From a bacterium (GTDB lineage: Bacteria > Zhuqueibacterota > QNDG01 > JABMRT01), in the NCBI GenBank assembly GCA_011046415.1, contig DSAP01000185.1:1-51337 (forward strand): DNA of 51,337 bases. Reading direction: 5' to 3'. Both the position numbers and the translations under genes were made by a program. Shown in pieces: positions 31,459 to 33,069 of the stretch (the first letter of the stretch is position 1; each line of letters begins with the position of its first letter). A model generated the notes under the pieces. That model searched no databases and was not told where the DNA came from. It was given only the letters and a program-made list of their open reading frames with translations.

Positions 31459-31749
31459 ATGGAAGACAGAAAAATTTTCATCGACAAGATGTCCGCGAAA
31501 CTGAAAGAATGGGACGCGGAAATCCGGAAACTCGAGGCGAAAGCGGATACCGTCAAGGCAGACGCCAAGGCCGGATATCTCCGGCAAATCGATGAACTGC
31601 GCGGCAGGAAAGAGGAGGCGCGGCAAAAACTCGAAGAAATCCGGGAAGCCGGCGAGGAGGCCTGGGAGGATCTGAAAGAAGGCGCCGAGCAAAGCTGGAA
31701 AATCCTGGGAGATTCCGTCAGGAATGCTTTCGAAAAATTCAAAGGATAA
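31459..31749 (+). CDS. small coiled-coil protein
   Basis: 96 aa, highly charged and helical, ribosome-binding site AAGGAGAC upstream, directly precedes the patatin gene. Confidence 0.7.
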   Translation: MEDRKIFIDKMSAKLKEWDAEIRKLEAKADTVKADAKAGYLRQIDELRGRKEEARQKLEEIREAGEEAWEDLKEGAEQSWKILGDSVRNAFEKFKG

Positions 31750-31756
31750 CCCGGAA

Positions 31757-32533
31757 ATGAAATTCATCAAAAGAAAGACGCCAAAAAAGAAGATCGGATT
31801 GGCACTCGGGGGCGGCGCCGTGCTCGGCGCCGCCCATATCGGCGTCCTGAAGGCGCTCGAGGAATATGACATCCCCATCCGGTATATTTCAGGGACGAGC
31901 ATCGGAGCCTTTATATCCATTTTTTATGCGTTCGGCAAGCGATGGAAAGAGATTGAGGAAATCGCCAAAGAGTTAAACTGGCTGGACGTTTCCGGCTTAT
32001 CGCTTTCGAAACTCGGGCTGCTGTCGAATAAAAAATTGGGAGAACGCATCAAGGAAACGATCGGTGATGTGACCTTTGACCAGGCAGATATTCCCCTTGC
32101 CATGATCGCCACGGACATCACCAGCGGCGAAAAAATTGTTTTCAAAGAAGGCGATGTGATTACGGCCGTCATGGCGAGTACGTGTATTCCCGGAATCTTT
32201 ATTCCGGTGGAAATGGACGACAGATTGCTGGTCGACGGCGGACTGGTCGAGAATGTCCCGGTCTCGCCTTTAAAAGAGATGGGGGCGGATTTCATCATCG
32301 GCGTGGATTTGAATGCCGAGTATTCCCGGAAGAAACCCGAGAATATTGTCGATATTCTGTTGAGATCTTTTGTTTTTACTTTGATGTCCGCAACGGAATC
32401 GCAAAAGGAAAAAGCACATATACTCATCCAGCCGGATTTGTCCGCATTCAACATGGTCGATATCGGCCAGGCGGATGCGTTGATAGAAACAGGATATGAC
32501 GCGGCAAGAACCGTTTTACGAAAGGTGTTTTAG
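31757..32533 (+). CDS. patatin-like phospholipase family protein
   Basis: LALGGGAVLGAAHIGVLKAL oxyanion loop, ISGTSIGAFIS (GxSxG), LLVDGGLVENVP (DGG). Confidence 0.93.
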   Translation: MKFIKRKTPKKKIGLALGGGAVLGAAHIGVLKALEEYDIPIRYISGTSIGAFISIFYAFGKRWKEIEEIAKELNWLDVSGLSLSKLGLLSNKKLGERIKETIGDVTFDQADIPLAMIATDITSGEKIVFKEGDVITAVMASTCIPGIFIPVEMDDRLLVDGGLVENVPVSPLKEMGADFIIGVDLNAEYSRKKPENIVDILLRSFVFTLMSATESQKEKAHILIQPDLSAFNMVDIGQADALIETGYDAARTVLRKVF

Positions 32534-32557: not shown

Positions 32558-32683
32558 AGGTCGGAATAAACGACCACCGGCATAGCCGGCGGCTTTTGAT
32601 TGCGGCCAAAGGCCGCGAGTAAAAGAAGGCACGTTCAGTGCCGACCTGTTTAAGATCGTGAACCACTGGCAAAGCCAGTGGTT
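32558..32683. repeat. multi-hairpin palindromic element (MITE/IS200-end-like or structured RNA candidate)
   Basis: Stems: 32574-32581/32585-32592 (1 mismatch), 32602-32607/32611-32616, 32628-32632/32638-32642, 32661-32670/32674-32683, plus long-range AGGTCGG 32558-32564 / CCGACCT 32641-32647. Confidence 0.65.
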
Positions 32684-32775
32684 TGCAAATGATCAATCAA
32701 GGGGCCGCCCGGATCCGGAAATATCCGGTCCCCCGAATCGGGTCGCCTCGCAATCCGTCTCACGGGTCCGGCTAC

Positions 32776-32802
32776 GGGCTGATCCCGGCCCTGGATCAGC
32801 CC
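32776..32802. repeat. perfect 10-bp inverted repeat
   Basis: GGGCTGATCC-CGGCCCT-GGATCAGCCC. Confidence 0.7.
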
Positions 32803-32854
32803 GATACTCTGCCTGGACTGCAGACACCCTCTGCGAACCAAGCGGAACCTGACT

Positions 32855-33069
32855 ATGAAACACACTGCGCTTTTCCTGATGTTTATCCCGGGGATTCTTC
32901 CTGCGGCGGAACACCCCCCGCCCCGATCCGCGTCATGACCTTCAATATCGATTACATTTTCGTTTCCGCGGGCATCGCGGTGCTGAAGCACGCCGCCCTC
33001 CCCCATTTCGAGGAAGGACGGCTCCCCTCGGACCATTATCCCGTGTTCGCCGAGATCGTGCTCAGATAA
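32855..33069 (+). pseudogene. endonuclease/exonuclease/phosphatase (EEP) family remnant: signal peptide + first beta strand fused to C-terminus
   Basis: MKHTALFLMFIPGILPAAEHPP signal in one frame, frameshift at 6-C run, then IRVMTFNI joined directly to DYIFVSAGIAVLKHAALPHFEEGRLPSDHYPVFAEIVLR. Confidence 0.75.

Follow-up and report, generated by a model that had tools for sequence, protein, structure and literature searches.

Shortly after the stop codon of a patatin-like phospholipase gene, in the 51,337-nucleotide stretch of DNA analysed here (the window), lies a cluster of hairpins, and the question is what kind of entity it represents. A preliminary description had proposed a PATE/MITE-like element, an orphan guide-like RNA or a structured 3' UTR. 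The four hairpins that it saw packed downstream of the patatin gene are all present as written (on sequence inspection at 32574-32592, 32602-32616, 32628-32642 and 32661-32683), and they are real, well above chance: as RNA, a 151-nt stretch folds at -71.2 kcal/mol (z -7.6), and as DNA at -38.8 kcal/mol (z -7.2), values equalled in neither case by any of 200 dinucleotide shuffles. That account of the structure was incomplete, lacking both the outer stem of hairpin 2 (32593-32625) and the GATC/GATC stem, each of which covaries. The interpretation favoured here, and considered likely, is that window positions 32564-32700, matched by the covariance model with 154 bits, hold one copy of a miniature interspersed repeat with several hairpins, a short mobile DNA element of the non-autonomous kind (Table 1). 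The patatin stop codon lies 30 bp upstream of it. Directly downstream, an open reading frame (32683-33069, plus strand) gives 16 bits, below the cut-off, to only the end of an endonuclease/exonuclease/phosphatase profile and looks like a truncated gene remnant. A partial 16S rRNA gene occupies the contig end (1-481, minus strand), and 16S rRNA is the sole Rfam match above threshold in the window.

Table 1. Parts of the element at the window copy, with the neighbouring gene
Feature	Position	Strand	Basis or remark
Whole repeat element, about 137 bp (136 in most copies)	32564..32700	+	Conservation edges across nine own-genome copies
Left tetranucleotide GAAT	32564..32567	+	NAAT in own copies; GAGT/CAGT/GAGC in relatives
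Unpaired left-end motif AAACGA	32568..32573	+	AAAC near-invariant across the order (copy alignment)
Hairpin 1, CCACCGGC-ATA-GCCGGCGG	32574..32592	+	Two-sided changes in 6/8 pairs
Hairpin 2 with outer stem, CTTTTGATT GCGGCC-AAA-GGCCGC GAGTAAAAG	32593..32625	+	Two-sided changes in 13/14 pairs
Hairpin 3, GGCAC-GTTCA-GTGCC	32628..32642	+	Two-sided changes in 5/5 pairs
Linker GACCTGTTTAA (GACCNGTTTNN)	32643..32653	+	Near-invariant in G000 and G004, widely kept elsewhere
GATC...GATC stem around hairpin 4	32654..32694	+	Changed on both sides: helix 5, 2/4 pairs; helix 6, 9/11 pairs
Hairpin 4, AACCACTGGC-AAA-GCCAGTGGTT	32661-32683	+	Inside GATC/GATC stem (32654-32657 with 32691-32694)
Right end GATCAATCAA	32691..32700	+	No variation in CAAT among own copies, full or short (boundary information profile)
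Patatin-like phospholipase gene (context, outside element)	31724..32533	+	PF01734, E 6e-35

The locus is not single-copy. Searching its own genome (G000; 3.1 Mb, 92% complete) with the element stretch revealed nine full copies, the window copy and eight on other contigs, with a mean identity of 95%. When these are aligned, identity begins at GAAT (32564) and ends after GATCAATCAA (32700), the DNA outside is unrelated, and the information content falls from about 2 bits inside the element to background at both edges. The first base of the left tetranucleotide may be G, C or A, the CAAT of the right end is invariant, and the left tetranucleotide is a candidate target or cleavage motif. No target-site duplication accompanies the own copies (mean longest flanking repeat 3.1, with 3.2 expected). 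For seven copies the joined 70-bp flanks match only their own site, which argues against segmental duplication as the origin of these seven; the same joined flanks found no empty site among relatives, which are too distant. The sharp left edge also disposes of the long-range closing stem proposed earlier, in which AGGTCGG (32558-32564) would pair with CCGACCT. Its 5' arm lies almost wholly outside the repeat, in flank where other copies carry unrelated bases, so that the stem is private to the window site and, as read from the bases, the pairing is a coincidence.

Deletion derivatives retain the same ends. Three short copies of 46 bp (L113, L109, L114), each with a single hairpin and both termini intact, join the left arm of hairpin 1 directly to hairpin 4's right arm. 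Because the direct repeat ACCACYGGCAAAGCC is common to both hairpins, recombination or slippage there could have removed the middle, a simple origin that we infer for the short forms. A fourth site, on contig C36, is an inverted fusion of two left ends. Relatives show comparable internal losses (L092, L100, L119), with inner hairpins gone and both ends mostly kept. Hairpins 1 and 4 are same-strand copies whose NNA loops are closed by C-G, as in C(AAA)G, C(GAA)G and C(AGA)G, and C(NNA)G-type triloops are very stable in DNA.

The folded shape is conserved well beyond the own genome. A covariance model built on 12 copies detected the element in nine of the 12 genomes of the order; among 70 genomes from the rest of the phylum it gave weak partial matches in G061 only (38 and 31 bits), and the one inspected is a plain palindrome. 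When a motif pattern was run against about 85,000 species, it matched seven records from order members, all metagenome-assembled, and gave six single matches in unrelated taxa, which are judged to be chance from the expected rate of the pattern. The pattern had no match in viral contigs, and phage and plasmid records contained no significant match to the element. The alignment used to assess covariation has 31 rows, including one antisense hit, and covers 30 copies in eight genomes. Of its cells 91.3% pair, and two-sided changes occur in 35 of the 42 pairs, compared with 19 pairs in shuffles (0/500 comparable) and at most 18 in slid registers. A single copy and a lack of compensatory change in relatives, two outcomes that the preliminary description said would refute it, are thus both contradicted. 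Own copies are 3.4-fold less variable at paired than at unpaired sites, and the lower variability of paired sites in such recent copies indicates that selection acts on the fold in whatever process generates the copies. Identity is 91% within G004 and 73% between G000 and G004; being higher within than between genomes, it shows that copies multiplied within lineages. The element is a discrete unit that has done so with its termini and folded shape conserved. In G004, hairpin 3 takes a longer form, GTCGGCACC...GGTGCCGAC, and one copy there (L118, on contig C69) has as hairpin 4 a perfect 19-bp stem starting GATCTTCGAACTCCGCGC with the loop GAA.

Strong covariation would also be expected of a family of structured non-coding or 3' UTR RNAs, acting as stability elements, terminators or processed small RNAs and multiplied for their usefulness, and the surroundings of the copies lend this idea some further colour. 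Read from the minus strand, hairpins 1 and 3 with their T-rich tails score as terminators (four found, 0.5 expected), and the right end lies between -10 and +15 bp from a facing stop codon in 10 copies, whereas the left end is that close in two, counts that are rough, as is the orientation count below, since genes were called by ORF length only. Against it, the T-rich tails are not kept in G001, short forms persist without most of the fold, and no Rfam family reaches its gathering threshold at the element (the best, sroD, scores 19.5 bits against 50). The copies are extragenic and occur in both orientations, with an overall bias of 24:14 that is not significant (p 0.14), and their neighbours are diverse, including genes for a glycosyltransferase, an AIR synthase, an outer-membrane efflux protein, a GH10 protein and a DHO dehydrogenase. 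With such unrelated neighbours at other copies, the earlier suggestion of a structured 3' UTR of the patatin gene is not supported. An RNA family multiplied for its function therefore appears rather improbable, and the terminator likeness of the minus strand may be a side effect. Termination as a conserved function was rejected, because T-rich tails are not conserved, as with GGCTTCATC after hairpin 1 in G001. The stop-adjacent right ends are those of L105, L108, L110, L112, L115, L116, L118, L097, L120 and L124; on the reverse strand of the right end, TTGATTGATC, two frames contain TGA, so that such insertions could be tolerated.

Multiple copies, sharp ends without target duplication, subterminal hairpins, derivatives that keep both ends and covariation all support the PATE/MITE-like element among the earlier proposals, and the question becomes how such a mobile element would move. 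Processing in single-stranded form is known for IS200/IS605 and REP elements (PMC8266576, PMC6006769), and the same-strand C(NNA)G end hairpins, unequal termini, lack of duplication and left-end preference seen here match that kind of processing. The element probably moves as hairpinned single-stranded DNA. An enzyme supplied in trans would recognise the near-end hairpins when one strand is single-stranded, would cut on the left behind the NAAT-type tetranucleotide and on the right behind CAAT, and would insert the strand without target duplication. In a check by eye for IS200-style pairing between a guide sequence at the hairpin foot and the cleavage site, hairpin-foot bases show no consistent co-change with the left tetranucleotide. 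G-T versus A-C counts on genome consensuses (29:17) favour neither strand clearly.

The resemblance to IS200/IS605 noted in the preliminary description is borne out for the subterminal hairpins but falls short of membership, as no TnpA is tied to the element. Searches of the 92% complete genome with the full element and the short form found no autonomous relative that combines these ends with a Y1 TnpA. The subterminal hairpins and conserved right end would also suit an orphan TnpB/IscB guide RNA or a decayed IS605 right end. However, the TnpB zinc-ribbon domain (PF07282) has no match in G000 or in seven of the eight other element-bearing genomes searched, both ends are sharp, and no coding remnant is conserved, so that the guide-like RNA of the earlier account is now a very improbable identity for this locus. 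An integron attC site was considered as well and set aside, with no GTTRRRY/RYYYAAC core and no array by eye.

A narrower form of the mobile-element reading, overlapping with it, is that the element is a REP/REPIN served in trans by a RAYT of its own genome. The Y1 genes of G000 comprise two intact REP-associated transposases (NF047646) and one fragment at a contig end, and the element resembles REPINs in its hairpin units, its extragenic position, its copy number and its compensatory changes (PMC3116915). Neither strand of the window copy, however, contains GTAG, CGTC or GGAG, the end hairpins are on the same strand where those of REPINs are inverted, and the RAYT genes are found among different palindromes, with no convincing match to the covariance model beside them. 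This more specific version is unlikely, though those RAYTs may act on the element in trans. The palindromic repeats surrounding the two RAYT genes (L032:1426-1968 on C1 and L034:1414-2010 on C8) are of the GGAGTCCGGCGCC type and GTGGGATAGAATCCCACC. The flanks of the Y1 genes examined, roughly 1.5 kb each, contain no convincing element copy; model matches there reach only 12-16 bits and fall on other palindromes. Linkage to Y1 genes in the order was rejected, having yielded only weak matches on unrelated palindromes.

Nested copies in a relative, G001, bear on the insertion step of the mobile element. Most full-length copies there (L085-L091, L093) occupy one position inside a second repeat of about 120 bp, which also exists uninterrupted in at least 36 near-complete copies matching a 120-base query (506 candidates at first look). 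Uninterrupted copies typically read GCGAGC-GAAT-(A/C)CAAATG and interrupted ones GCGAGC-GAG(C/T)-AAAC...GATCAAT-CCAAATG. These junctions are consistent with insertion immediately behind a GAAT-like tetranucleotide and with CAAT as the constant right end, as far as the sequences allow: the likeness of element end and target leaves their bases partly ambiguous, and the empty-site argument assumes that the outer repeat is older than the element.

The second repeat, TTGAATCTGACAGCGAGCGCATTCCCC ... GGGGAGCTTCAAT, has about 40 strong matches in G001 (e.g., L168, L172) and dozens of full or partial matches in G004 (L170) and G009 (L169); it is absent from G000. Its left 27 bp are identical between different families, and G002 carries a single-hairpin short form of it (L171). 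Since it begins with TTGAAT and finishes with TTCAAT, the element and the second repeat may share machinery. A bolder proposal, to which only little weight is given, is that the element and this abundant repeat of G001, G004 and G009 constitute an order-specific superfamily with GAAT-like left and TCAAT right ends, whose mobilising enzyme would be distinct from both the classical IS200 TnpA and the RAYTs of tagged repeats, which would amount to a new kind of ssDNA mobilisation system. A separate single-hairpin repeat, GGTTGCGGCCAAAGGCCGCGCC, is present in at least 14 copies in G047 (e.g., L014, L017, L020, L024) and shares the hairpin-2 core of the element, possibly by chance.

Judging from databases and a non-exhaustive literature search, the family is apparently undescribed. 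Its existence indicates that repeats with several hairpins and no tag, their folds conserved across an order, occur outside well-studied groups, and its ends, fold, covariance model, and nested and uninterrupted copies provide a concrete family for testing what moves tagless REP-like repeats. With the MITEs of DDE transposons the element shares its tiny size, non-autonomy and deletion derivatives that retain both ends, but it has no clear terminal inverted repeat by eye and no target-site duplication. ERIC/IRU and enterobacterial RU repeats, which belong to another bacterial group, are, as compared by description, similarly intergenic, multicopy and strongly structured at about 100-170 bp. The RU elements have been described as MITE-like (PMC2759123). 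REP elements are short, extragenic, palindromic and multicopy, with compensatory hairpin changes and predicted folding of ssDNA or mRNA (PMC3116915, PMC3733652), and the element resembles REPs, REPINs and BIMEs in being short, extragenic, palindromic, multicopy and foldable, with compensatory changes. It differs from them in having four hairpins in about 137 bp, two same-strand end hairpins, distinct termini and only about a dozen copies in its own genome, and assignment to REPs fails because it lacks the GTAG or CGTC tag and no RAYT is found beside it. Unlike PATE-type derivatives of IS200/IS605, it has no parental IS with the same ends in its own genome and no TnpB; with them it shares same-strand subterminal hairpins at both ends (hairpins 1 and 4), a constant right tetranucleotide, a left tetranucleotide preference that is less fixed in relatives, and insertion without target duplication. 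The element thus apparently represents an order-restricted family of structured non-autonomous mobile repeats that works like REP and PATE elements.
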